Source: Selenomonas sputigena ATCC 35185
GTDB lineage: Bacteria; Bacillota; Negativicutes; Selenomonadales; Selenomonadaceae
Assembly: GCF_000208405.1 (NCBI RefSeq)
Contig: NC_015437.1
Coordinates: 1,977,501 to 2,041,500 of the forward strand
DNA: 64,000 nucleotides
Reading direction: 5' to 3'
Shown: positions 11,503 through 51,119 of the stretch, in pieces
How positions within the stretch are numbered: position 1 is the stretch's first letter
Layout: the number at the start of each line of letters is the position of its first letter
Made by a program: the position numbers and the translations under genes
Notes under the pieces: generated by a model
Seen by the model: the letters and a program-made list of their open reading frames with translations, nothing else
The model's database searches: none
What the model was told of the DNA's origin: nothing

Positions 11503-12786
11503 CTAAAATGACTGGTGCAGACCGAAGTAGGCGGCGCGCCGCTCGCTGCGGTTGAGATCTTTGAGTTGACCCATCAAATACGTATCTTCACGCAGACGGT
11601 ACTTGGCGGAAAGGCGCAGCCGGAAATCGTCGGGGTCGTAGGCGTCGGCGGAGAAGAGCCAGCGATTTCCAACATTCGCATCAAGACCGACGCCCGGCTC
11701 GCCCGCGATGAGTCCCGCGCGTGCGCCGAGTCTGCCCTTCGTGCGGCCGACCTCAAGATTCAAATCGTTCCCCTCGCCGATGTCCTCGACGCCGACGCGC
11801 AGGAAGCGATCGGGCCTGTCCTCCTTGGAAACGTCGACGTTGAAGTTCGTGATCCAGTCGCGATTCTTGCCGCTGTAGAGAATGTCAACCGAAGGCTGCG
11901 TTTCTATGCTGCTTAAGTTATCGAGCGTGTCGTTCGCCTTCTCTGTGACGGCGCGCGCCTGATGGATCGTCGCCTTGAGATCTTCGCGCACCGTGGGATC
12001 GCCCGTGATGTCGTGCAGTTCCTCCGCCACCTGCCGGATGTTCTCGCTCGCCCTGGCGACGTTCAGCAGTGTCAGACGAAGATTTGCAGCCGTCGCGCCG
12101 CCGTCAGAGACATCTGCCGCCATCTGGCGCACCGTCTCCGTCGTCGCGGAAAGGTTCGCGAGGATTATCTGCATCTCCTCCATCATCGCGTGCATATTGC
12201 CCTCGTTCTGCAGCGCAACGCGCCCGAGCACAGCCGTGAGGTCGCGGATGTGCGCCGTGACCTCGCGCACATTTTCCGCCGATCCGAGGACGGATTCCTT
12301 CATGCGCGGATTGCCGAGGATGTCGTTCAACGAACCGAGGAGGTCATGCACGTCGGCCACCGCCTCGCTCACATTCTCAAGCACGGAATCGACGCTCGTC
12401 TCATCCGTGCCGATGACGAAGTCGCCGTCCTTCAAGTAATCCGTACTCTTCGATCCAGCCGGCGAGATGAGGACGAACTTGTCGCCGAGGACGCTGTTCG
12501 CCGCGAGAGAGATTCGCGCATCGCGCGGGATCTGAATGTCGGGATGGACGGAGAGCGTCACGCGCACGCCCGTCCCCTCCGGCTCAATGGCCTTGACCTT
12601 GCCCGCGAGCACGCCCGCATAGCGCACGTCCGCTTCCGGGGCAAGCCCCACGACCTGCGTGAATCCTACATAAATCGTATAATTGCGGCTCGTCGAAAAA
12701 GAAAATCCCTGAAGCTGCAGGAGCACTGCCGTCAAAATCGCGATGCCGAGAAGCGTGAACGCTCCCACCTTCGCTTCCGTCGTCAT
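11503..12786 (-). CDS. mlaD: MlaD-like MCE-domain lipid transport protein with C-terminal barrel-like extension
   Basis: 427 residues, more than twice proteobacterial MlaD. An N-terminal TM (about 8-28) is followed by a single MCE domain (about 35-115: YTIYVGFTQVVGLAPEADVRYAGV, VLGDKFVLISPAG), a long helical rod (about 135-285), and a C-terminal 140 residues of alternating strands (FNVDVSKEDRPDRFLRVGVE, LRLSAKYRLREDTYLMGQLKDL) ending in Phe. A transenvelope MlaD with a C-terminal outer-membrane barrel has been reported for Veillonella, and this protein fits that plan. Its ATG overlaps the mlaF stop (ATGA). It works with MlaE and MlaF to move phospholipids between the membranes. Confidence 0.93.
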   Translation of the reverse strand: MTTEAKVGAFTLLGIAILTAVLLQLQGFSFSTSRNYTIYVGFTQVVGLAPEADVRYAGVLAGKVKAIEPEGTGVRVTLSVHPDIQIPRDARISLAANSVLGDKFVLISPAGSKSTDYLKDGDFVIGTDETSVDSVLENVSEAVADVHDLLGSLNDILGNPRMKESVLGSAENVREVTAHIRDLTAVLGRVALQNEGNMHAMMEEMQIILANLSATTETVRQMAADVSDGGATAANLRLTLLNVARASENIRQVAEELHDITGDPTVREDLKATIHQARAVTEKANDTLDNLSSIETQPSVDILYSGKNRDWITNFNVDVSKEDRPDRFLRVGVEDIGEGNDLNLEVGRTKGRLGARAGLIAGEPGVGLDANVGNRWLFSADAYDPDDFRLRLSAKYRLREDTYLMGQLKDLNRSERRAAYFGLHQSF

Positions 12787-37429: not shown

Positions 37430-40400
37430 TTAGAAACTCCAGCGAAGGCCTGCGTCGACGCGCCAATCAGTCTTGATGTCGCCGCCGAATGTCTTTTCAA
37501 ATGTGCCATAGAGGCTCGTTTTGTCACTGAGCTTCATCGTGCCGCCGAGCTGGAGACCAAGCCATGTATCCTTTCCTTCTTGATGCGTCGTTTTCCACGG
37601 ATTCGTCCCGTCAGAGTAATCCGTCGAGAGATCGCCCGCGAATTCATGATAGAGCGACGCTTTGAGGAACCATGTGCTGCTCTTCGTTTCTTGACCGAAG
37701 CCAAGACCAATGCGCCCGACGAAGCTGTTCATCGCGCCTTGGCGTACATACATCTTCTGTCCGGCATAGTCCGTATCACCCGTGTAGTTGACACCGTTCA
37801 GATGGCTGTAGATCAGCTCGATCTGCGGCTCGACGAAACTGCCGCCATTCAGGTTGATACGTCTGCCGTACTCTGCCGAGAGTGAACCGCCCCAGGTGTG
37901 GAAGTCGCCCTTGACATAGTGATTGAAGTCGTTGTAGACCGTGTACTCATTAGAGAGTCTGCCGATCTTTGCAATGAGATCGACATATTCGCCGTTCTTG
38001 CCCGACCATGTGCCATAAATGCCGAGGTTGCCTTCCTTGTTTTCGCCATTGCCTTTTGCAAAGGAAGATGTTCCCTTCATGTAGCTTCCAGCAACGCCGA
38101 CACGCCAGTCGTCTCCAACCTTCTTGTCGTAACCGACCTGGATCGTCGTGTAGTTCATCTCGAAGTTCGTCTTGTCCTTGTCGCTCGACGACTTGCCGCG
38201 GTAGACACGCGCCCAAACGCCCTCATCTTCTGGCGAAAGTCTGAGATCGCCCATGCGCTTCATAAGGTCGTTCGCCTCGGCACGCCACGCCATCGTCGAT
38301 GCCGTCATCGCCGACTTGACGCCGCTCATGAGTTTCGTCTCGTAGTCGCCATACTCAATTTTCGGCTTCGGCTGCGGTTTCGGCTCTGGCTTCGGCTGCG
38401 GCTCTGGCTTCGGCTGCGGCTTCGGCTGTGGCTGTGGCTGCGGCTCTGGCTTCGGCTGCGGCTCTGGCTTCGGCTGTGGCTGTGGCTGTGGCTGCGGCTG
38501 CGGCTCTGGCTGTGGCTGCGGCTCTGGCTTCGGCTGTGGCTGCGGAGCCTTTACCGAACCTTGACCGCTCGCTTCCGACCAATCCATATTTGCCTTTTTC
38601 AGCGTCTTGGATGAGGCGACCAGACCTTCAGAGATCATCGCCTCGCCTTTGAGATTCCTCTCCCCCGTCTTATATCCGTCGTAGTAGAGCTTTCCTGCGA
38701 GTGCATTGAGCGTCTTGTAGACTTGCGTCTCGTCCGTCAACGTAAGACCGTTGCTGTCCGTCACCATCGTGACCGAAGAATTCTCCGCCGCTTTCTTGAT
38801 ATGCACATCGCCCGCCTTATAGTGCTCGGCTTTCGTGCCGTCGCCTTCATGCTGATAGACGAGCTGCATATTGCCGGAGTAGTTGTCAATCGTGATCTTG
38901 TGCGGATCGTTCTGCTTCAAGATGCCCTTGTCTGCCTGCAGACGAGTGACGCGGCTATCCATAGCAATGCCCTTTTCTCTAGAGCCGGTTTCCTTCTTGT
39001 GATGATAGCCAGTGCCGACCTGCTTATGTTCCCATATTGCACCGTTGGCGAGCAGCATGGAAACATTGCCGGGGTTGTAGCGCCATTTCTGCGTCTGCTT
39101 GTCAATCCCATTGATGTCAGTCGATACCATTCCCTTGAAGAAGGAATTCTTATTATTCAATCCCAAGACGATATGACCATCGCCCTCCGAGCTGATATCG
39201 CCCGTAATCTGTACAGGACGCGTATTCGAAGTCGCGACCACATTGCCATTCCCATCAAACTTAGAATTGACGAATACTGTGCCACGGTCATAAGCAGCGA
39301 TGGACGCGACATCAGTACCCTTGATAATGCCGCCGCCGATGGAGATTCTCGCACCATGCGACTCAATCGCACGCCACATCGTCGAGTCGATGTCCACGAG
39401 TCCCTTGATATCGACCTCCGCGCTGCCCATATTCTTGCGAGCTTCGATCGCACCGAAATCCTCACCTGTATTCTTCACGCGGATTTTGACGGCATTTTCC
39501 ATCTTGTCGTCGTTCTCAATCACAAGCTTTGCTTTTCCATGACCGCTCATGTGTCCCGGACCGCCCGGATAACCCATGACGAAGATGCCGCGTCCGTAGA
39601 GACTGCCCTTCGGATCCGACTCGATATTCATGCCCTTGACATTCTTGATCGTAAGCGTGCCGCTGTAGACGGTGATGGCATTCGGCGTGCGCTCCCAGCC
39701 TGCCTGCGGGCCTTCGTTCGGCAGAAGGCCATGACCGCCGGGACCTGCCTTGATGTCGAGGCGATGCCCCGTCATATCAATCGAACCTTCAACGTCGCCG
39801 TTCCAATAGATCGTCCCGAACTTATTGTCCCTCGCCGAAGTGACGGGCTTATCCGCCGCCTTTACCTCAAGCTTGATGTCGCGATGGAAGGTATAGTTCC
39901 CCTTGCCGTCGTAAACGCCCTTGCCTTTCCAATATGCCTTGGTATCGTTCGTATCGAAATTGCCTTCGGCAATTTGCTTCTTAATCGTTTCACCCGTCAA
40001 AGGAGTTGTATCTTTGGGCTTTACATGAGCGCGCCCGTTTGACAGCCAGTAGTCGAGATCCATCTGCTGCGAAACGGCAGATCCCGTCAGCCCTTCAGCG
40101 ATCATCGCCTTGCCCTTGAGATTGCGCTCACCATTGACGTAACCATCGTAATACAGCTTGCCTGCAAGCGCATTGAGCGTCTTGCGCACCGCAGTCTCAT
40201 CGCCGAGATTGACACCGTTGCTGTCCGTCACCATCGTGACCGAAGAGTTCGCGGCAGCATGCTTGATATGTGTATCGCCGTAGAACTTGTTGGGATCTTT
40301 ATGGGCCGGATCGCTGCCATAGTCCTCCGTCTGCGTGCCGTCATTGACATGCTTGTAGTAGAGTCGTGCACTGCCGGAGAAATTATCAAACGTAAGCGGC

Positions 40401-43400
40401 TTATAGTCGTTGCGGTCAATGCCGGTATTCAGACCGTGGAAATTCTTGTAGTTCCCATTCTCTATGGTATCATTCGTATACCCCTGGCCACTGTCCGAAC
40501 GGAAGGATATATCTGCCAGCCGCTTCGAAATTGACGATGCCGTCAGTCCCTCAGCAATCATCGCCTTGCCCTTGAGGTTTCGCAGACCGGATCTTGCACC
40601 ATCATAATAGAGCTTGCCTGCGAGTGCATCCAGCACGCTTCGGACTTGCGCTTCGTCCGATGTTGTGATGTTCTTGCTGTCCGTGACCATCGTGACCTCG
40701 GAGCCTTGCTTTGCCGCCGCAATCTTGACATCGCCCGCTTTGTAGTCCGCTGCTTTCGAACCGTCGTTCTCATGCTCGTACATCACCTTCATATTGCCGC
40801 GGAAGTCGTCGATGAGGATGTTGCGCTTGTCCTTCTGGCGGATGATGCCGCCGTCGGCATTAAGGCGGCTGACACGGCTGTCGCCCAGCTCCGCCGTACC
40901 ATTCTTATCCCTGCCCGTGCCGAACTTCGTATGTTCCCACGTACCACCGTTCTTGAGAACGAGATAGCCATTGCCCGACGCCAATTCCCAATTATTCTGT
41001 GGCCATGTGTACATATCGGTAGTAAAGAGTCCCTTGAGGATGGAATTCTTCGTCGTCAGACCGATATAAGCGGAGGCAGATCCTGCTTTCACCTGTATAT
41101 CGCCCTCAATCTGCACATCGCGATTCTCGTGCATGGGGACGACGTTACCTTCACCATCCATCGTCGCATTGATCTTTGCCGTACCGGGCGAGTTTACATA
41201 AAGCGCCGCATCACCCTTCGAGACGATTCTGCCGCCGCCGATGGTGAGCGTGCCTCCATCGACGACCACGCCTTTCGGTGCATCAATATCGACCATGCCG
41301 TCGATTTCCAACCGCGCAGCGCCGTTGTAGCTTTCGAGATAGATGCCCTTGTCCTTAGACATAATTTTCACGGCATGATCTGCATCTGCCTGATTCTTGA
41401 TATAGAGGTTCGCATTCCCCTTCCTCTGATCACCTACCAGATGGATGCCGTTGTTGTGCGCCTGAATCGTCGTCTTGCCGAGCGACTTCAGCTCAAGCGT
41501 ACCACCGTTCACCAGAATGCCGGTGGACTCGTCGCCGCGACGCTCTCCCGATTGCGTACGGACATTGCCGACTCCGGTATCAATATTCAGCGCATGCCCA
41601 TTCATATGGATACTGCCGTTCTTTCCTTTGCCCCACAAGATACCACCGAAATCATAGCGGCTGTACTCGTTCAGCGCCTTGACGGGATTGTCGCTGAGCT
41701 TGGGAGAAAATGCAGCGTCGTTGCTGAAGCTGTAGGTCGAGCCGCTGCGAACGCCCTTCTTGTCCCAATACTTCTGCTCACGGACTGCACCTTTCCAGTC
41801 GCCCTCCGCAATCTGACGTCCTTCGCCGATATCTTCCTTGACGCTTCCCTGTCCATTTGCTTTGAAGGTGATATCCTCCAACTTCTTCGACGCCGATGAA
41901 GCAGTCAGTCCTTCGGCGATCATTGCCTTGCCCTTGAGATGGCGCTCGGTAGCGGCAGCATCGTAGTAGAGCTTGCCCGCAAGCGCGTTCAGCGTCTTAT
42001 GGACCGCAGCATCGTCCGACAGATTCACACGATCAGCATCTGTGGCGACCGTGATTTCAGCATTTTCCGCCGCACTCTTGATATGCGTGTCGCCCGCTTT
42101 GTAATGGGCGGTGTCCGTGCCGTCGCTTTCATGCTTATAGAACAGCTTTGCTTTGCCTTCGAACTTGTCAATGGTGAGATCCTGCGTATCATTCTGGTGA
42201 ATCGCGCCGCCGTCCGACTTCAAATGTGTCAAATGACTCCTGCCAATCGTATCGCCGCCGATACCGACCGACTGATTATCCCAACGCGCACCATTTGCCA
42301 GCAGAAGACGAGTACTCCCGCTGCCCGAGCTGCCAATCTTTCCCTTGATGTAGGACTGTTCCGTATTGAGCGCTGCACCGAAGACGCCGCCATTGCCCTC
42401 AAGCAACACGTTGCCTTCGACCTTGACATCGCGCTCCGTCGAAGCAGCGTCAACGCCGTCACCGGCGCTTCTCGCATTGATGAATACCTTGCCTTGCCTC
42501 GTGATATGCACGGCTTTCGCATTCGCTCCGGCCATCATGCGTCCGCCGCCGATACGGATTTCGCCGTCATTCGAGGCATAGAGAAGATTTTCCTTATCCT
42601 GCTCGATATCGACAAGCCCCTTGATGTCGACGAGGGCGCTTCTCGATGATGCACCTTTTGCCGTGATGGCGTTGCCTTTTTCCCCGCTCGATGTATTGCG
42701 AATCTTAACTGCATGCGGTGCTGTATCGTCGTTTTCTATGACGATACGGCCATCTCTGCGACTGGTTGCCATGGCATAGATGCCGTGTTCTGAGCGCTTG
42801 CTGCCCGTAATATTGATATCGATGCCGCCCGCACGCTTGATTTCCAGATTTCCGGCAGTCGCCACGATACCGCTCGCATATCTTTCATCCGAGTCCGCCG
42901 TACTGTTCAGCGTCAGCCTATGAGCCTTCATATCGACAGTGACAGGCCCTTCAGGAGCCTCCTCATCAACCACGATACCGCCCGTATAATATCGCTGCGC
43001 AGGGATCACCTTGTTGTCGCTCGCCTTCGTGCGAATGATGACGTCCTTGTCAAAGGTATAGTGCCCGTTGTCATCGCCGTAGCCATCATTCTTCCACTTC
43101 TCGCTCAGATCCATGCTGTCAAAACCGACTTCTGCAATCTGCTGCGTCGTATCCAGCACGGCAGAAGCGGGCGGCGTAGATGGCTGTCCAGGCGTCGTGC
43201 CTGGCGGCGTAACAGGCGGCAAGGGAGCAGCGGGCGTACCGTCCGTGCTGCCTTGCCCAGTCGTCGCAGAGAACTTCATGCGCTCGACCTTGACTTCTGC
43301 CGAAGATGCCGTCAAGCCTTCCGCGAGCATTGCCCGACCCGTGAGATGGTCTTCCCCGCTCTTTGCTGCATCGTAGTAGAGCTTACCTGCGAGTGCGTTG

Positions 43401-44719
43401 AGCGTTTTATGAATCTGTTCTTCATTCGCTGCAGGATTTGTGCGGTCCGTCACCATCGTGACGAAAGAGTTCGCCGCCGCCTTTTTGATGTGCGTATCAC
43501 CTGCCGTGTAGTGCGATGTGTCTGTGCCGTCGCCGCCCGTATGACTGTAGTAGATCTTTTGCCGACCCGCATAGTCGTCAATCGTCAGCTTGCCTGCATC
43601 ATTTTGGAAAATGTTTCCCTCATTGCCATTCGTGCTTGAGAGTCGGGCAAGCCGCGTGCCGCGCCCGCCGTTCATCGTATCCCACGTCGCGCCGTTCTTC
43701 AAAAAGAGCGTCGTCTTTCCCGTTGCGCCAGCTTCCGTACCGCCGAGCCATTTGGAATCCGCTCCATTAAGGCCGAGGTAGACTTCGCCGCCGTTTTCCG
43801 TATGAATGGGACCTGCCAGCTCCGTCTTTTGATCCGCAGCATCGGTGCCCGCCTCATTCACATTGAAATAGGTTTTGCTCGATCCCTTCACCCACATCAA
43901 CCATTGATCGCGCGCCTTGTTGTCGGCAATCTTCAGCTTGCCGCCGCCGATGCGCAGAACGCTGTCTTTAGCAGAATTGAATTCATCACCAAACTGAATG
44001 CCGCGCTGGATCTTCGGATCGTCAATATCCACGCGACGAATATTCAGCGTATTACTCTCTCCTGTCACATGAATACCATACGTACTCGGTGATTTCACGT
44101 TCCCCAGTCCGGCTTCCGTCCAATAATGGTAGACGGCTCCCGGTTTTATCGTGAACGTGCCATCCAGATTGAGCGTCGCTTTACCCGGCGCCCAAATGCC
44201 GCGGGCAAATTCTCTGCCTGCCCAAAGCTCATTGATCTGCACATCTGCATGGATATCCGCTTTCATCGGTTTTTTTGCATATTCGTCGAACCGAATGCCG
44301 CTTGTCGCACCGCCATGCTGATCGGCATCCTTCCAGTTTCCATGGGCATTGATGGTGATGAGACGGTTTGCCGCACTGGCATTGTTCTTATCGCTATGAA
44401 CAGTTAACGTTGCATTAGGGCGAATATGAAGTCCCGAGGCGCGATTATTCTCATTCTTTAGATTGCGAATATCCAGTTTGAGATCGTGCCCTGCCATATC
44501 GAGCGTAAGCGAGCTGTTCGCATAAACAGCCGATGCGCCATTCACAATATTCCACTTGATCGTATTCTTATCTGCCTTGACCTCGGTATCCGCCGTCAGC
44601 GTCGTATCTTCCTTGATCGGTCCCTGCTCTGCCGCCCACGCCGGCACTTGCCATGAGCCTGCCAGCAAGGCTGCGGCAATGCCTAAAGTCAGTTGCTTCA
44701 GACGCGCTTTTTTCCTCAT
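37430..44719 (-). CDS. Giant autotransporter with tandem passenger modules and Pro-rich stalk
   Basis: 2429 residues. Signal peptide 1-29 (cleavage at AWA-AE). The passenger (30-2055) is beta-helix-like, made of modules of about 450-490 residues with shared motifs: a Gly-rich IGGG turn, VDIKGLVDID, GDTHIKKAAENSSVTMVTDS and TLNALAGKLYYD followed by a KGKAMIAEGLTASS-type stretch. The last motif occurs five times (near 43.37, 41.96, 40.61, 40.15 and 38.67 kb). A stalk of Pro/Gln/Lys/Glu repeats covers about 2057-2124. The C-terminal autotransporter barrel (about 2165-2429) ends GLRWSF. No passenger enzyme domain is recognisable, so adhesin or ligand binding is likely. GGAGAG precedes the ATG. 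A cobalamin riboswitch lies about 300 bases upstream with no other gene between, so expression should respond to cobamides. Confidence 0.9.
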   Translation of the reverse strand: MRKKARLKQLTLGIAAALLAGSWQVPAWAAEQGPIKEDTTLTADTEVKADKNTIKWNIVNGASAVYANSSLTLDMAGHDLKLDIRNLKNENNRASGLHIRPNATLTVHSDKNNASAANRLITINAHGNWKDADQHGGATSGIRFDEYAKKPMKADIHADVQINELWAGREFARGIWAPGKATLNLDGTFTIKPGAVYHYWTEAGLGNVKSPSTYGIHVTGESNTLNIRRVDIDDPKIQRGIQFGDEFNSAKDSVLRIGGGKLKIADNKARDQWLMWVKGSSKTYFNVNEAGTDAADQKTELAGPIHTENGGEVYLGLNGADSKWLGGTEAGATGKTTLFLKNGATWDTMNGGRGTRLARLSSTNGNEGNIFQNDAGKLTIDDYAGRQKIYYSHTGGDGTDTSHYTAGDTHIKKAAANSFVTMVTDRTNPAANEEQIHKTLNALAGKLYYDAAKSGEDHLTGRAMLAEGLTASSAEVKVERMKFSATTGQGSTDGTPAAPLPPVTPPGTTPGQPSTPPASAVLDTTQQIAEVGFDSMDLSEKWKNDGYGDDNGHYTFDKDVIIRTKASDNKVIPAQRYYTGGIVVDEEAPEGPVTVDMKAHRLTLNSTADSDERYASGIVATAGNLEIKRAGGIDINITGSKRSEHGIYAMATSRRDGRIVIENDDTAPHAVKIRNTSSGEKGNAITAKGASSRSALVDIKGLVDIEQDKENLLYASNDGEIRIGGGRMMAGANAKAVHITRQGKVFINARSAGDGVDAASTERDVKVEGNVLLEGNGGVFGAALNTEQSYIKGKIGSSGSGSTRLLLANGARWDNQSVGIGGDTIGRSHLTHLKSDGGAIHQNDTQDLTIDKFEGKAKLFYKHESDGTDTAHYKAGDTHIKSAAENAEITVATDADRVNLSDDAAVHKTLNALAGKLYYDAAATERHLKGKAMIAEGLTASSASKKLEDITFKANGQGSVKEDIGEGRQIAEGDWKGAVREQKYWDKKGVRSGSTYSFSNDAAFSPKLSDNPVKALNEYSRYDFGGILWGKGKNGSIHMNGHALNIDTGVGNVRTQSGERRGDESTGILVNGGTLELKSLGKTTIQAHNNGIHLVGDQRKGNANLYIKNQADADHAVKIMSKDKGIYLESYNGAARLEIDGMVDIDAPKGVVVDGGTLTIGGGRIVSKGDAALYVNSPGTAKINATMDGEGNVVPMHENRDVQIEGDIQVKAGSASAYIGLTTKNSILKGLFTTDMYTWPQNNWELASGNGYLVLKNGGTWEHTKFGTGRDKNGTAELGDSRVSRLNADGGIIRQKDKRNILIDDFRGNMKVMYEHENDGSKAADYKAGDVKIAAAKQGSEVTMVTDSKNITTSDEAQVRSVLDALAGKLYYDGARSGLRNLKGKAMIAEGLTASSISKRLADISFRSDSGQGYTNDTIENGNYKNFHGLNTGIDRNDYKPLTFDNFSGSARLYYKHVNDGTQTEDYGSDPAHKDPNKFYGDTHIKHAAANSSVTMVTDSNGVNLGDETAVRKTLNALAGKLYYDGYVNGERNLKGKAMIAEGLTGSAVSQQMDLDYWLSNGRAHVKPKDTTPLTGETIKKQIAEGNFDTNDTKAYWKGKGVYDGKGNYTFHRDIKLEVKAADKPVTSARDNKFGTIYWNGDVEGSIDMTGHRLDIKAGPGGHGLLPNEGPQAGWERTPNAITVYSGTLTIKNVKGMNIESDPKGSLYGRGIFVMGYPGGPGHMSGHGKAKLVIENDDKMENAVKIRVKNTGEDFGAIEARKNMGSAEVDIKGLVDIDSTMWRAIESHGARISIGGGIIKGTDVASIAAYDRGTVFVNSKFDGNGNVVATSNTRPVQITGDISSEGDGHIVLGLNNKNSFFKGMVSTDINGIDKQTQKWRYNPGNVSMLLANGAIWEHKQVGTGYHHKKETGSREKGIAMDSRVTRLQADKGILKQNDPHKITIDNYSGNMQLVYQHEGDGTKAEHYKAGDVHIKKAAENSSVTMVTDSNGLTLTDETQVYKTLNALAGKLYYDGYKTGERNLKGEAMISEGLVASSKTLKKANMDWSEASGQGSVKAPQPQPKPEPQPQPEPQPQPQPQPQPKPEPQPKPEPQPQPQPKPQPKPEPQPKPEPKPQPKPKIEYGDYETKLMSGVKSAMTASTMAWRAEANDLMKRMGDLRLSPEDEGVWARVYRGKSSSDKDKTNFEMNYTTIQVGYDKKVGDDWRVGVAGSYMKGTSSFAKGNGENKEGNLGIYGTWSGKNGEYVDLIAKIGRLSNEYTVYNDFNHYVKGDFHTWGGSLSAEYGRRINLNGGSFVEPQIELIYSHLNGVNYTGDTDYAGQKMYVRQGAMNSFVGRIGLGFGQETKSSTWFLKASLYHEFAGDLSTDYSDGTNPWKTTHQEGKDTWLGLQLGGTMKLSDKTSLYGTFEKTFGGDIKTDWRVDAGLRWSF
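38348..38548. repeat. Low-complexity tandem repeat encoding the Pro-rich stalk
   Basis: About 200 bases of near-identical 6- and 12-base units (variants of GGCTGTGGCTGCGGCTCT on the + strand) encoding alternating Pro with Gln, Lys or Glu. In-frame multiples of 6 mean the repeat can gain or lose units without breaking the frame, changing stalk length. Confidence 0.85.
38673..43400. repeat. Tandem module repeats within the autotransporter gene
   Basis: The module end (encoding LAGKLYYD plus KGKAMIAEGL-type sequence) recurs at about 43372, 41961, 40607, 40149 and 38673, i.e. spacings near 1411, 1354, 458 and 1476 bases. Four modules are full length and one is short. The copies are diverged but still similar at the DNA level. 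Confidence 0.8.
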
Positions 44720-45030
44720 ATCTTTATCTCTCCTTTGTTCTGTGAAATCGCTTTCTTCAGCGACTTCTTTTCTCTGCCATGTTTCTCAGCGGCGCAGTCC
44801 GCGCCATAAATACTCTCAAACCGCTTACCGGCCTGCCAGCCTTTCTAACAGGTTCTCAGCCTTTCCAACACCATTGCCATCGCCTCCCTTGACAGCACTC
44901 CAACAAAAAAACGCGACACAAAAAGAACACATAGCCTTCCATGAAAATGAGAACTGTCAAACGACAGCCCAAACTCCTTGGCCTGCTACGCGCCATCTTG
45001 TATCGCGCAAGTGACGTGACGAAAAGAAAA

Positions 45031-45186
45031 CAGGCGGCACTCTGACTTAGCTCATCATCCTGCCATCTCTTTGTGAGAGACGTACGATGGCAGGACTCCC
45101 CATACAGTTGCGGAACAGCTCCGGATTCACACCGGATTCCCCACACTCAGCCTTGCGGCTTCCATTTCTTGTGGTATGAAGTTGTC
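45031..45186 (-). ncRNA. Cobalamin riboswitch upstream of the autotransporter
   Basis: Read leftward: AACTTCATACC, a GCCGCAAGGC stem, then GGGGAATCCGGTGTGAATCC, GGAGCTGTTCCGCAACTGTA (the B12-box core), an AGTCCTGCC..GGCAGGA stem, GATGATGAGC and TAAGTCAGAGTGCCGCCTG. These follow the order of the cobalamin aptamer. The nearest downstream gene is the autotransporter (start 44719). No strong intrinsic terminator is visible after it; CTGTCGTTTGACAG with a weak T tract (about 44950-44970) is the best candidate. Confidence 0.88.
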
Positions 45187-45330: not shown

Positions 45331-47265
45331 TTAGAAGCTATGCTCCACGCCGACGACAAAGCTGCGTCCCGGAGCCGTCCACCACTGACCGGCTCCACCG
45401 TAGTTCACATTGGAACGCTCAGCATAGAACTTATCGAAGAGATTGTTGACCTTGAGATAGACCTTCGTCGTTTCCATGATCTTATAGTTCATGCCGAAAT
45501 CGCAGACCCAGTACGACGTCTCCGGGAAAGCGTTGTCCACGGGACCCGGACGGTCAATCATGGCGCGTGCCATCAAGGATGCGTCGAATCTCCGATTCTT
45601 GTAATCCACACCGATATTCCACTGATGCGTCGGCAAATAACCATCAACATTTGCTTTGCGCTGTTCGGTCTTACCAACATGCGTGTTCGTATAGCCAAGG
45701 CGTGCACTCACATGTGAGTCAAAGCGCTTCGCAAGCTGCAGATCCCAGCCATGTGCATCCTCATCGCCAACGTTGATATTCTGATATGTCACGGGATGAA
45801 AGCCGATACGATCCTTGGAATGACGCCAATAGTAGTGCGCTGCAACATTCAGTCCTTTGCCAAAATCATGCGCAATACCGATCTCCCGCGTATCGCCGGA
45901 CTCGGGCTTGAGGTTCGGATTGCCATATGTCGGCGCATAGAGCTGATTCGGCGTCGGGGTCAGGAAATACTCGGTATAAGCTACATAGGCATGAGTTCTA
46001 GGCGTAATATCATAGCCAAGGCTCACGCTCGGGCTTGTATGGCTGCCGAAAGCCGAATTGCTGTCGTAGCGAATGCCGCCGATGAGCTTGAGTGCAGGCG
46101 TGATGTTCCACTGATCTTGCAGATAGACGGAACGATTCACGAGGGATCTCCCGTCAATACTCACTATTCCTCCGTTCCAAATCGACGTATCGTCATACGT
46201 GAAATCCACACCGGTCGTCAGGAGATGATCGCCGAAGCGCTTATCATACTGGTCACTGAGCTTCCAGCTGTAGACGTCCATCTCGTAGCTCGATCCTAGC
46301 GGCGTCCACATGTTATGGTAAAAGAGATTATAATTATAGCGGCTGCGGGAAAGGACCATCTGATTCTTCGAGGTATCGTCAATCTTCGCATTCCAGATCA
46401 AGTCTACATCAAAATGATCGTAGCGTCCTCGATTCTGCTTCAATCCCTGCTGCTTTTCATACAGCGCTTGATAGCGGTCTCCATCCTTGTAACTGCGCAG
46501 GTTGAGCACAAGGTACGAAGCCTTGCTGAGATCTTTGCCGAGGTGTATGTTGACGGAATCAGCGTCGAGTCCTGAAGGAACTTCATTGCCATGCCCATCT
46601 TTGAAGTCGTTGCTCTTGTCCTTCTGATACTTGAGCCGCCAATCAAGACCGTTCTCGCTGCCCTCGTAAGCAACACTGTAGAGCTGCTTGCCGAAGCTGC
46701 CATAAGCCGCCTCAACCGTCGCTTTCGCGTTCTTCGCCTTCTTCGTGATGATGTTGATGACGCCGCCCTTAGCATCCGAGCCGTAAAGCGTCGATGCCGA
46801 GCCGCGCAGCACCTCGATGCGGTCAATACCGCTGAGATCCTTCATCGCTGATGTCAGTGACGCCGCAAAGCCACCTGCATAATTCTGCTTCACACCATCA
46901 ATGAGAACAACAACATCCTCCGAGCCATTGATATAGAACTTTGTGCTGTTATTATACCCTGCCGGCGCATACTGATTGACCGTAACGCCCGGGACATCGC
47001 GCAGAGCCTGCGTCAGATCCGTATAGTGGCGCTTTTCGAGATCCTTTCCCGTGATGACCGTGATATTTGCATTCGCCTTGAGCTCCTGTACCGGCGTGCG
47101 CGTCGCCGTGACGACCGTCTCGTCGAGCGAATGCTCCGATACGGCATCCTGCGTCGACTCCGCTTCTGCGGCAAACACTTGCCCCCCCGCAGGATACAAA
47201 GCAGCGAACGTAAGCGCCGCCGCCACCGTCGCGCCGAGTTTCTTCCTCGACCCTGTTCTTCCCAT
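45331..47265 (-). CDS. btuB: TonB-dependent outer-membrane receptor, BtuB-like (cobalamin uptake)
   Basis: 644 residues. Signal peptide 1-33 (VFA-AE). TonB box DETVVTATRTP (about 48-58), plug domain (to about 165: ITVITGKDLEKRHYTDL, IDRIEVLRGSASTLYGSDAKGGVINIIT), then a 22-strand barrel ending in GVEHSF. The TonB-box type and size fit BtuB, and a cobalamin riboswitch with its own terminator lies in the leader, so cobamide uptake is the likely role. No tonB, exbBD or btuFCD is in the window. Confidence 0.92.
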   Translation of the reverse strand: MGRTGSRKKLGATVAAALTFAALYPAGGQVFAAEAESTQDAVSEHSLDETVVTATRTPVQELKANANITVITGKDLEKRHYTDLTQALRDVPGVTVNQYAPAGYNNSTKFYINGSEDVVVLIDGVKQNYAGGFAASLTSAMKDLSGIDRIEVLRGSASTLYGSDAKGGVINIITKKAKNAKATVEAAYGSFGKQLYSVAYEGSENGLDWRLKYQKDKSNDFKDGHGNEVPSGLDADSVNIHLGKDLSKASYLVLNLRSYKDGDRYQALYEKQQGLKQNRGRYDHFDVDLIWNAKIDDTSKNQMVLSRSRYNYNLFYHNMWTPLGSSYEMDVYSWKLSDQYDKRFGDHLLTTGVDFTYDDTSIWNGGIVSIDGRSLVNRSVYLQDQWNITPALKLIGGIRYDSNSAFGSHTSPSVSLGYDITPRTHAYVAYTEYFLTPTPNQLYAPTYGNPNLKPESGDTREIGIAHDFGKGLNVAAHYYWRHSKDRIGFHPVTYQNINVGDEDAHGWDLQLAKRFDSHVSARLGYTNTHVGKTEQRKANVDGYLPTHQWNIGVDYKNRRFDASLMARAMIDRPGPVDNAFPETSYWVCDFGMNYKIMETTKVYLKVNNLFDKFYAERSNVNYGGAGQWWTAPGRSFVVGVEHSF

Positions 47266-47404: not shown

Positions 47405-47506
47405 ACACTCCTATCACAATGGCACCGCAAAAGCCGCTTTGCCCAAAGGCAAATACGCTGCCGAAAATCTCCTTCCCATCGCTCGCAGGTCAAACGGTGA
47501 TTGTCA

Positions 47507-47702
47507 ATCAGGCAGTTCTCCTGGCTTCAGTTCATCACCTGTCTGCGCCTTCCCAAGGATTGACTCCTCAGTGACCATCTCAAGAAACACAAAGATTTTT
47601 CTCGTGCAGACCGGCTCGCTGCTACAGTGGCGGGACCGCTCCGGCATATACCGGATTCCCTATTAAGTCTTGCGACACCTGATCCAATCGGTATGAAGTT
47701 TT
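47507..47702 (-). ncRNA. Cobalamin riboswitch controlling btuB
   Basis: Read leftward: AACTTCATACC, GTGTCGCAAGAC, AATAGGGAATCCGG, GGAGCGGTCCCGCCACTGTA, GGTCACTGAG, GGGAAGGCG, GATGAACTG and AAGCCAGGAGAACTGCC, all core elements of the cobalamin aptamer in order. About 240 bases ahead of btuB, with an intrinsic terminator in between. Confidence 0.95.
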
Positions 47703-47816: not shown

Positions 47817-48791
47817 CTATGAAATCGTATTCCGCAAAGCTTCTTGCTGTGTTTGCAGCTTTTCTTCCCAATCGGTACGCGAGCGCTGTATGAACTCGTG
47901 CACAAGATAGTCGGGGCAGATAAGATCGACGATGCGCCGCGCCGCATCCGTCTGAAACGGCTGATGGCGGTCGACCTGCAGGACGTATTCCATGGCTTCC
48001 TGCCAAGACAGGCTGCGATGCTCGCCCGCATGCTCCTCCATCATGCGCTTCGTATAGCTTCCCGAAAGCGATTGATGAAGATGCACGCCGTAGATTCGCT
48101 TGCCAAGTTCGCCAAGATTTCGATAAATCTCCTTCACATAGCGTGCACCATCTTCTTCGCTCGTGAGATCAGCATTCGTATTCATCAGATGCCCGACATC
48201 GAGCATGAAGCCCGTATCCGCATGGGAAACGCGCTCCAAAAGCGCACCTGCAAGCTGCGGCTTTTGAAATGTCAATCCCGGCCACCAGAGATTTTCAAAG
48301 AGTAGGCGCACACCCTGCGGTATCTCATCTGCGATCTCGTTGACAAGCTCGATTGTCCCTTCGATGACTTCTTCATCGGTATGAGCGAACTCGCGCGTAT
48401 ACATCTCCGAAGTCACATTGTGCGCGACATGAAAGACGAGATACTGCGGCCGACAAGTCGCCGCTTGGCGCAGATTCTCTTTCCAGCTTTCCACCCAGTC
48501 ATCAACATCAAGAGAGCCATAGTAGGCGCGGATATTTTCCTCCGTGCCGAACTCTGCAAGGAGCGCAGCTTTATCCCCGCGCCAAAAATCCAGCCACGAC
48601 GGCCAGAAAAGGAGATGTACGCCCTTGATATACGTGGGCGGATACATCGCTCGATCCCACGGCGCACAGAGCATGAATTCGATGCCATCGAGTCCGTAGC
48701 GCTGAATGAATTCATGGAGGGCTTCCGTTTTATTTTGCAGCAAATTCTCTATATCGCAGCCTGCATTCGATATATTCACCAGTTCCAGCAT
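47817..48791 (-). CDS. TIM-barrel (AP endonuclease 2/xylose isomerase-like) protein; candidate CbiR-type cobamide hydrolase
   Basis: 324 residues. Barrel motifs: GLDGIEFMLC, YLVFHVAHN with a His for metal, VRLLFENLWWPGLTF with a Glu, TGFMLDVGHLMNTNADL (Asp-His) and IYGVHLHQSLSG (His), typical of the metal-dependent PF01261 barrel. Many members are sugar epimerases or endonucleases. CbiR, a cobamide-remodelling enzyme first described in Akkermansia, belongs to this superfamily, and this gene lies just upstream of btuB and its riboswitch, so a CbiR role is attractive. That is inference from context; no CbiR-only motif was checked. AGGAGA precedes the ATG. Probably driven by the repeat promoter at 48912-48939. 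Confidence 0.72.
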   Translation of the reverse strand: MLELVNISNAGCDIENLLQNKTEALHEFIQRYGLDGIEFMLCAPWDRAMYPPTYIKGVHLLFWPSWLDFWRGDKAALLAEFGTEENIRAYYGSLDVDDWVESWKENLRQAATCRPQYLVFHVAHNVTSEMYTREFAHTDEEVIEGTIELVNEIADEIPQGVRLLFENLWWPGLTFQKPQLAGALLERVSHADTGFMLDVGHLMNTNADLTSEEDGARYVKEIYRNLGELGKRIYGVHLHQSLSGSYTKRMMEEHAGEHRSLSWQEAMEYVLQVDRHQPFQTDAARRIVDLICPDYLVHEFIQRSRTDWEEKLQTQQEALRNTIS

Positions 48792-49094: not shown

Positions 49095-51071
49095 CTAGTC
49101 AAATTTCCTATCGTAGAGCAGCGCAGCGATCAGGACGACGAAGCACGAGCCGGCATTGTGCACGAGCGCACCCGTCGTAGGGTTGAGCTCCTGCATGAGA
49201 GACAGGACGATGGCAACAAAATTGATGCACATCGAGAGCGTGATGCTGAGCTTGATCGTCGTCGCCGTGGCATTGGCGAGGCGCTTGAGGTAGGTCACCT
49301 CGCCAACATCGTCGCGCATCAGCGCTATGTCAGCGGCTTCGACGGCGATATCGCTTCCCATCACGCCCATCGCCGCGCTGACGTCAGCACACTTCAAGGC
49401 GGGTGCGTCGTTCACGCCATCGCCAATCATCAGAACTTTGCGCCCCTTTTCCTGCAGGTTCCTGACGTGTGCGACCTTATCTTCGGGCAAAAGATCCGCA
49501 TGGATCTCGTCGATGCCGACTTGGCTCGCAAAGTAGGCCGCGGTTTCCTTGTTGTCACCCGTCAGGAGCACGGTGCGCACATCCATAGTGTGCAGGCGCT
49601 CGACCATCGCCTTCGCCTCGGGACGCAGCGTATCGGAGAGGGCGAGCGCACCGATGCACCTCTCCCCTTCCGCCGCGAGCACGAGCGCCTTGCCTTCGGC
49701 GCGCAGGCGCTCCAAAGCTTCACGCATCGGCGCTTCCGGCATGACGCCGTTTTCCGCGAGAAAGCTCACGCTGCCGCACAAGAGTTTTCGCCCTGCGACC
49801 TTTGCCGAGACGCCCCTGCCCGCCGTCATGCGGAAATTCTCCGAAGGCGCAAGCGCGACGTCCTGCGCCTTCGCATGGGCGACGATCGCCTTGCCCAGCG
49901 GATGCTCGCTCCTCGCCTCAGCGGAGGCGACGATTTGGAGCAATTCCTCTTCACTGACAGTTTCAGCAAAGGGCAGGACATCGCTGACAGAGAGTTTGCC
50001 GCAGGTCAATGTGCCTGTCTTGTCGAAGGCGATCGTATCGACCTTGCCCATCTTTTCCAAGGTCTCGCCCGATTTGATGATGACACCGCGCTTCGTCGCC
50101 TGTCCGATCGCCGCCATGATCGCCGTGGGCGTCGCCAAGACGAGAGCGCACGGGCAGAAGACGACCAGCAGCGTGACTGCAATGATGATGTTCGCCGTCG
50201 CAGCATAGGCGCCGACGGCGAGCACGAGCACGATGGGAACGAGCCAGCTCGCCCAGCGGTCGGCGATGCGCTGCATCGGCGCCTGCTTATCCTCGGCTTC
50301 CTGCACCATGCGGATGAGCCTTTGCAGGGAGCTTGACTCGCCGACCTCCTTCACTTCGACATCGACCGAGCCAAAACAGTTGAGTGTGCCGCAGAAGATC
50401 TCTTCGCCCACACCCTTGTCGACGGGCAGGGATTCGCCCGTCATGACGGACTGATCGACGGAAGTCTCGCCTGCAAGAATCGTGCCGTCCACGGGAATCC
50501 GTTCGCCAGGCAGGATGCGCAGCACATCGCCGCGCACGATCTCTTCGAGCGCGATCATTTCCTCCCTGCCGTTTCGGATTCTCCGCCCCTGCGTCGGCGA
50601 AAGCGCGAGGAGATTCTTTAATCCCTTCTTCGCACGCTCCGTAATCGCCTCTTCGAGAAGTGCGCCGAGCGCCATGATGAAGGCGACCTCGCCCGCCGCG
50701 AAGAGATCGCCGATGGCGATCGCTGCAAACATCGCCATCGAGATCAGAAGCGCCGATGAGATCTTGCTGATGCCGCGATTGTAAATGATGCGCCAAACGG
50801 ACAGGTAGAGCAGCGGAATGCCGCAGATGACGACCGTAACCCATGCGGGGTCGAACGGCAAAATCTGCATGGGCGCCGCTTCCGCGCCGAACTCCTCCAT
50901 CACATGCGGCACGAGATCGAGCAGCAGGAATGCCGCCGCCACGAGCGTCATGGAAAGGCTCGCAAGAAAATCATTGAGCCTCTTGAGTAGCGCCGCACTT
51001 TGCAGTCTGTCGCAGCCATAGCCGCTTGGCTGCAAAGGTTTCTTTCCCTGTACCGCATTCGCCTCTGCCAT
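49095..51071 (-). CDS. P1B-type heavy-metal-translocating ATPase
   Basis: 658 residues from the ATG at 51071. Actuator TGES (SVMTGESLPVDKG), membrane metal motif CPC (VVFCPCALVLATP), phosphorylation motif DKTGTLT, nucleotide-domain HP (SEHPLGKA), hinge GDGVNDAPALKCAD. Eight TM segments are expected. No N-terminal metal-binding CXXC domain. The last TM has LVHNAGSCFVVLIAALL instead of the Cu (MXXSS) or Zn (DXG) signatures, so the metal cannot be assigned with confidence. Divergent from a TetR gene and controlled from a shared operator. Confidence 0.9.
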   Translation of the reverse strand: MAEANAVQGKKPLQPSGYGCDRLQSAALLKRLNDFLASLSMTLVAAAFLLLDLVPHVMEEFGAEAAPMQILPFDPAWVTVVICGIPLLYLSVWRIIYNRGISKISSALLISMAMFAAIAIGDLFAAGEVAFIMALGALLEEAITERAKKGLKNLLALSPTQGRRIRNGREEMIALEEIVRGDVLRILPGERIPVDGTILAGETSVDQSVMTGESLPVDKGVGEEIFCGTLNCFGSVDVEVKEVGESSSLQRLIRMVQEAEDKQAPMQRIADRWASWLVPIVLVLAVGAYAATANIIIAVTLLVVFCPCALVLATPTAIMAAIGQATKRGVIIKSGETLEKMGKVDTIAFDKTGTLTCGKLSVSDVLPFAETVSEEELLQIVASAEARSEHPLGKAIVAHAKAQDVALAPSENFRMTAGRGVSAKVAGRKLLCGSVSFLAENGVMPEAPMREALERLRAEGKALVLAAEGERCIGALALSDTLRPEAKAMVERLHTMDVRTVLLTGDNKETAAYFASQVGIDEIHADLLPEDKVAHVRNLQEKGRKVLMIGDGVNDAPALKCADVSAAMGVMGSDIAVEAADIALMRDDVGEVTYLKRLANATATTIKLSITLSMCINFVAIVLSLMQELNPTTGALVHNAGSCFVVLIAALLYDRKFD

Positions 51072-51089
51072 AAAGATCCCCCATTTCCT

Positions 51090-51119
51090 TGACAAGATGA
51101 CATCCTCTTGCGTACAATA
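51090..51119 (+). promoter_or_regulatory. Promoter for the TetR gene
   Basis: TTGACA (51090-51095), 18-bp spacer, TACAAT (51114-51119). The predicted start falls just ahead of the palindromic operator. The leader to the TetR ATG is about 115-120 bases. Confidence 0.7.

Follow-up and report, generated by a model that had tools for sequence, protein, structure and literature searches.

CbiR of Akkermansia muciniphila (Amuc_1679) is a cobamide remodelling phosphodiesterase; its hydrolysis of AdoCbl yields AdoCbi-P and alpha-ribazole, and EDTA inhibits the reaction (PMC7733943). In endonuclease IV (Nfo), nine ligands hold a trinuclear zinc centre (PMC5636811). A third described enzyme, CbiZ, is the adenosylcobinamide amidohydrolase of corrinoid salvage. 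A study of Dehalobacter restrictus describes operon-2, with a riboswitch, a fepB-type transporter, two cbiZ genes, cobN and chelatase subunits, and reports its induction under corrinoid starvation, 46-fold on average at the protein level (PMC4285132).

Here we consider a family of TIM-barrel proteins with a member encoded in a 64,000-nt stretch of the Selenomonas sputigena ATCC 35185 genome (the window; coordinates given without a locus refer to it). The family and CbiR have in common the PF01261 barrel, the conserved His/Asp/Glu metal residues, the association of their genes with cobamide genes, and anaerobic hosts. On the other hand, the window protein has 324 aa compared to the 249 positions of the CbiR model, and the family makes a clade of its own, has invariant ENLWWPG and W66 motifs, and has its main ties with import genes and cobalamin riboswitches instead of cobS/cobU loci. 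With Nfo the family shares the fold and all nine trinuclear-zinc ligands in the same order along the barrel; however, it is a separate clade located in corrinoid operons, the host has an nfo gene besides, and the D-x-H motif is followed by PF in the family and by a G-x-G loop in Nfo. CbiZ is found in the same operons and also belongs to corrinoid salvage, but it is an unrelated protein (PF01955) and cuts a bond different from the one proposed below. The D. restrictus operon-2 is the same type of riboswitch-headed corrinoid cluster as those around the family; in the passages that describe it, no PF01261 gene is named.

We found no earlier description of this PF01261 family in the open-licence literature and regard it as undescribed. 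In many anaerobes its genes accompany those for B12 import.

The locus and the host genome

The TIM-barrel gene was called as an ORF for 324 aa on the minus strand, with the ATG at 48791. The protein matched PF01261 with 49.3 bits against a cut-off of 31.1 (Pfam). The PF01261 barrel gene of the preliminary description is a real ORF. Inspection of the sequence revealed no signal-peptide-like start. The features of the locus are as follows.

47817..48791, minus strand: TIM-barrel gene, predicted to encode a cytoplasmic metallo-phosphodiesterase and to belong to the corrinoid uptake regulon (ORF, PF01261, AF2 model, family alignment)
47494..47697, minus strand: cobalamin riboswitch between the TIM-barrel gene and btuB (RF00174, 84 bits, E 3.2e-19)
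45331..47265, minus strand: BtuB-like TonB-dependent receptor, 644 aa (best NCBIfam match TIGR01779 TonB-B12, 210.6 bits, below the cut-off of 599.7)
45016..45170, minus strand: second, weaker cobalamin riboswitch, 3' of btuB and 5' of the autotransporter gene (RF00174, 36 bits, cut-off 31.5)
37430-44719, minus strand: large autotransporter gene, 2429 aa, behind the second riboswitch

The gene had been placed directly upstream of the btuB riboswitch, and this is correct: the riboswitch lies 3' of the gene. Since it is downstream of the TIM-barrel gene and on the same strand, the element at 47494-47697 is the btuB leader, and its position gives no evidence for control of the TIM-barrel gene itself. 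Upstream of the TIM-barrel gene is a heavy-metal P-type ATPase gene (49095-51095), and in the interval of ~300 bp between the two no riboswitch was found, even at E<=1.

The order gene-riboswitch-btuB was repeated in Selenomonas and Megamonas genomes, and the window protein was 65-73% identical to the Selenomonas and Centipeda copies that share this order. Only one genome of the same genus was sampled (G001, locus L211); its homolog was just 46% identical and was located in a different corrinoid locus. This pattern suggests transfer or differential loss. The arrangement around the second riboswitch was seen as well in Selenomonas infelix (L003), where a riboswitch at 11527-11699 stands ahead of a large ORF. 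Regulation of an autotransporter by B12 would be out of the ordinary.

The host genome has 13 cobalamin riboswitches. Its corrinoid operon includes cbiF-type, cbiG, cbiA, cobU, cbiP, cbiB and cobS genes, a cobD-type aminotransferase gene and, after cobS/cobD, a gene for a CobC-like phosphatase. Another host locus (L141, G000:C1:1356000-1375900) begins with a cobalamin riboswitch followed by genes for a TonB receptor, periplasmic binding proteins, a radical SAM protein and AAA/VWA chelatase-like proteins, and also contains genes for CbiZ, CobN, a NifH-like protein and two NifD/K-like proteins; resemblance to annotated neighbors elsewhere is the basis for the assignments as radical SAM, VWA and NifH-like. 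Clusters of this type, with a nitrogenase-like reductase, also occur around the family in other genera. The strain had been described as a salvaging one. The presence of cbiZ agrees with that, while the biosynthesis genes listed above, from the cbiF-type gene to the CobC-like one, do not fit a pure salvager; from its gene content the host probably makes cobamides and, in addition, imports, reworks and salvages corrinoids.

Conservation of the metal site

Endonuclease IV, epimerases and further superfamily proteins were aligned with the family. In E. coli endonuclease IV the metals are bound by H69, H109, E145, D179, H182, H216, D229, H231 and E261, and all nine of these ligands aligned with invariant residues of the family. 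Their counterparts in the window protein are, in the same order, H59, H121, E166, D198, H201, H237, D274, H276 and E299, and all nine positions were kept in every one of the 95 family sequences. The codons, with correspondences taken from the alignment and each residue invariant in the 95 sequences, are located as follows.

48615..48617, minus strand: His59 (endonuclease IV His69)
48429..48431, minus strand: His121 (endonuclease IV His109)
48294..48296, minus strand: Glu166, in the ENLWWPG motif (endonuclease IV Glu145)
48189..48200, minus strand: Asp198-x-x-His201 (endonuclease IV Asp179 and His182)
48081..48083, minus strand: His237 (endonuclease IV His216)
47964..47972, minus strand: Asp274-x-His276 (endonuclease IV Asp229 and His231)
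47895..47897, minus strand: Glu299 (endonuclease IV Glu261)

Also invariant in the alignment were E38, G57, L60, W66, Y117, N167, W169, W170, P171, G172, G194. The His/Glu/Asp metal-binding pattern, noticed earlier in the single sequence, is thus no chance feature, since E38 and the nine ligands hold across the 95 homologs. The assignment to the superfamily of endonuclease IV and CbiR is supported, as is a full phosphodiesterase-type metal site in the alignment. Several of the nine ligands were missing from the epimerases UlaE, Hyi, YgbM, YcjR and FrlC, most notably the His that ends strand 4. All nine are kept, on the other hand, in a number of further superfamily proteins whose function is unknown, so that the substrate cannot be read from the site by itself.

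The AF2 model of the window protein had a pLDDT of 97.2 and a pTM of 0.94, and both this model and a fold search agree with a PF01261 TIM barrel. As modelled, most of the ligand residues are at, or just past, the ends of the barrel strands, which is the position of the active site in the superfamily. The conserved aromatic residues W66, F69, W70, W169 and W170 may line a large pocket. The protein is likely to be a metal-dependent phosphoester hydrolase.

Association with corrinoid import genes

Gene neighborhoods were analysed for the best 80 of 222 confirmed relatives in genome contigs. With a uniform tblastn test, we scored the presence within ~8 kb of BtuC, BtuF, a TonB receptor, CbiZ, CobN, CobA, CbiK or a corrinoid biosynthesis gene. 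One or more of these import, salvage and biosynthesis genes turned up in 57 of the 80 loci, compared to 1 of 20 control loci around other superfamily members; the controls came from other lineages and were slightly shorter stretches, so that the contrast is indicative rather than exact. No such neighbor was found by this test within ~8 kb in the other 23 loci, which were mainly from Clostridia and included some short contigs.

Clustering of the neighbors, with Pfam and NCBIfam matches, showed import proteins (Peripla_BP_2, FecCD and ABC proteins of the corrinoid/siderophore type, TonB receptors, ExbB, ExbD, TonB) as well as CbiZ, CobA, CbiK, CobN, AAA/VWA proteins and nitrogenase-like proteins. 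With few exceptions, they were encoded on the strand of the family gene. For example, a Pelosinus operon (L014) read riboswitch-btuB-gene-btuF-btuC-btuD-exbB-exbD-tonB, with gaps of only a few bases from the family gene onwards, while a second Pelosinus locus (L024) was similar, with a nitrogenase-like gene ahead of btuB. In Clostridium tepidiprofundi (L036) the order was riboswitch-btuF-btuC-btuD-gene; here and in L014 the riboswitches were identified with Rfam. In two further loci the family gene came first behind the riboswitch, the orders being riboswitch-gene-btuF-btuC-btuD (L212) and riboswitch-gene-exbB-... (L213).

A co-directional riboswitch was located no more than 5 kb upstream of the gene in at least 5 of 20 relatives with the gene, compared to ~0.14 expected (P about 2e-7, assuming random placement in a 2.7-Mb genome). 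Among the riboswitches listed, genomes with the gene had a median of 6 cobalamin riboswitches compared to 3 in genomes without it (P=0.0009). Out of 41 near relatives, 10 had cbiZ, and 7 of these 10 had the family gene, a weak association (P=0.28). Co-occurrence with cobS was uninformative as evidence, with cobS present in 41/41 relatives.

The link to cobamide uptake that had been proposed from the window alone gains considerably from the 57/80 and 1/20 loci and from the riboswitch-headed btuB/btuFCD operons, and we consider a role in corrinoid uptake very probable.

Proposed function

The function that we favor, with confidence about evenly poised, is that of a cobamide phosphodiesterase coupled to uptake, in a lineage distinct from that of CbiR. 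At a comparable level of confidence, the metal site, the setting among import genes and the precedent of CbiR point to the cobamide phosphodiester as the bond that would be cleaved. The protein would be a cytoplasmic three-metal TIM-barrel hydrolase, part of the corrinoid uptake system. Like CbiR, it would cleave the phosphodiester of imported cobamides, with cobinamide-phosphate and the nucleoside of the lower ligand as products, and CobU and CobS would then re-attach the cell's own lower ligand. The enzymes of this rebuilding, CobU, CobS and the CobC-like phosphatase, are all encoded in the host genome. Where CbiZ is present, the corrinoid could go on to cobyric acid instead. Within a single superfamily, a lineage distinct from CbiR would have arrived at the same job or kept it.

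The most likely rival also assigns the enzyme to corrinoid uptake and places its action at another bond or molecule, most likely another phosphoester of the same pathway. The enzyme could be, for example, a cobinamide-phosphate or alpha-ribazole-phosphate phosphatase, or could act at a step of a larger corrinoid pathway together with CbiZ, CobN/ChlID and the nitrogenase-like reductase. A three-metal site would suit a phosphomonoesterase equally well, and many genomes pair the gene with CbiZ, CobN, AAA/VWA chelatase-like, radical SAM and nitrogenase-like genes. However, the tightest tie of the family is to the importer (btuB, btuFCD), and it extends to genomes without CbiZ, as in 14 of the 21 relatives that have the family gene; in addition, the host already encodes the CobC-like phosphatase behind cobS/cobD. 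We regard this alternative as possible and somewhat doubtful.

More speculatively, and with a rather small chance of being correct, the hydrolase could belong to an undescribed pathway of corrinoid processing in anaerobes under the control of cobalamin riboswitches, in which the hydrolase and CbiZ would open imported foreign corrinoids, and CobN/ChlID-like, radical SAM and nitrogenase-like (NifH/NifDK-like) proteins would then rework the ring or the metal.

If cobamide phosphodiester cleavage is the true function, the family would be a second, separate lineage of cobamide-opening enzymes, placed inside operons for B12 import in Negativicutes and Clostridia, among them the oral and gut genera Selenomonas, Megamonas and Phascolarctobacterium. 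Being missed by current CbiR models and by searches for cbiZ, it would mean that remodelling of foreign cobamides is probably under-called in these bacteria. Many genomes have the family gene without cbiZ, and for these it is a specific candidate for the missing salvage step.

Relationship to CbiR, endonuclease IV and epimerases

Kinship with CbiR was judged by the NCBI equivalog model (NF041277) and by sequences matching that model, which also stand for CbiR in the tree. Two high-GC loci with unclear reading frames (L105, L107) were left out of the comparison.

The CbiR model was the best NCBIfam match of the window protein (E 0.00038), and motifs such as ENL and DVGHL are common to the family and the protein of L104, which passes the CbiR cut-off. 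These observations would fit a true, diverged member of the CbiR family. The score of the match, though, was 20 bits compared to a cut-off of 105. Matches to this model at E<=0.001 were present in 225 of 299 Bacillota genomes, with only 2 above the cut-off, and a weak match is therefore superfamily background and was rejected as proof of CbiR identity. Within the family, 33 of 95 members matched the CbiR model at E<=0.1 (the best at 6.5e-5), while the endonuclease IV model (TIGR00587) matched more of them (43). ML analysis of 54 sequences gave a tree in which the family was its own 100/100 clade on a long stem, away from L104 and with no sister group resolved; L104, moreover, has Arg at the position of the family's Asp274. 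We therefore consider a diverged CbiR unlikely. The suggestion of CbiR family membership in the preliminary description was not supported: 'is CbiR' finds no backing in the sole curated test at hand, while 'works like CbiR' is a well motivated proposal.

Two CbiR-like comparisons deserve a mention. The protein of L104/L134 scored 154 bits with the CbiR model, and its gene has sugar ABC transporter-like genes for neighbors, while a search of the surroundings gave no cobamide gene; Arg replaces the Asp of the D-x-H metal motif. It was rejected as a reference CbiR in view of this neighborhood, and this case suggests that the equivalog model may over-call. The best CbiR-like comparison found (L125/L157, G133:C1:678000-693000) scored 56.8 bits, below the cut-off, and its gene is divergent to a btuF-cbiA-cobU-cobS-cobC-cbiP operon. 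The L157 protein may be a genuine CbiR that the model overlooks.

In the same ML tree, endonuclease IV and the multi-member groups matching the CbiR model formed clades of their own, and the epimerases were located elsewhere. The family was thus placed with neither the sugar epimerases nor endonuclease IV; either placement would have counted against the early proposal. A sugar-phosphate isomerase or epimerase standing beside btuB by chance would have the same common PF01261 fold, and fold searches were set aside as a discriminator because endonuclease IV and isomerases tied in them (Z about 17-18). Such a reading is quite improbable given the corrinoid operons conserved over many genera, the extra metal ligands missing from the epimerases compared, the separate clade, and the profile comparison, where CbiR-like groups and endonuclease IV scored well above the epimerases. 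A second endonuclease IV acting in DNA repair would account for the nine-ligand site and for the weak nfo-model matches of some members, but it is very improbable, as the host has its own nfo (L001), the Nfo clade (100/99) excludes the family, and the gene is found in uptake operons, not in repair loci.

Distribution of the family

We found at least 80 homologs, in Negativicutes, Clostridia and Treponema. A copy of the gene was present in 21 of the 41 near relatives, with the host genome counted. The host itself has only two PF01261 proteins, the window protein and endonuclease IV. No relatives were found in viral contigs. The plasmid collection yielded two records with a family member, NZ_CP084075.1 and NZ_CP154629.1 (L209, L210). 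Both are listed as plasmids, with chromosome-like sizes of 2.1 and 2.6 Mb, and are probably chromosomes; no corrinoid genes were found within 9 kb of the family member in either.

Two loci showed irregular copies or surroundings. In L095 (G028:C6:648522-649478) the homolog is broken by an in-frame TGA. In Alkalibaculum sporogenes (L055, 7222-9236) the 5' end of the family gene is overlapped by another PF01261 gene, with an amidohydrolase gene ahead and a cobalamin riboswitch just 3'.
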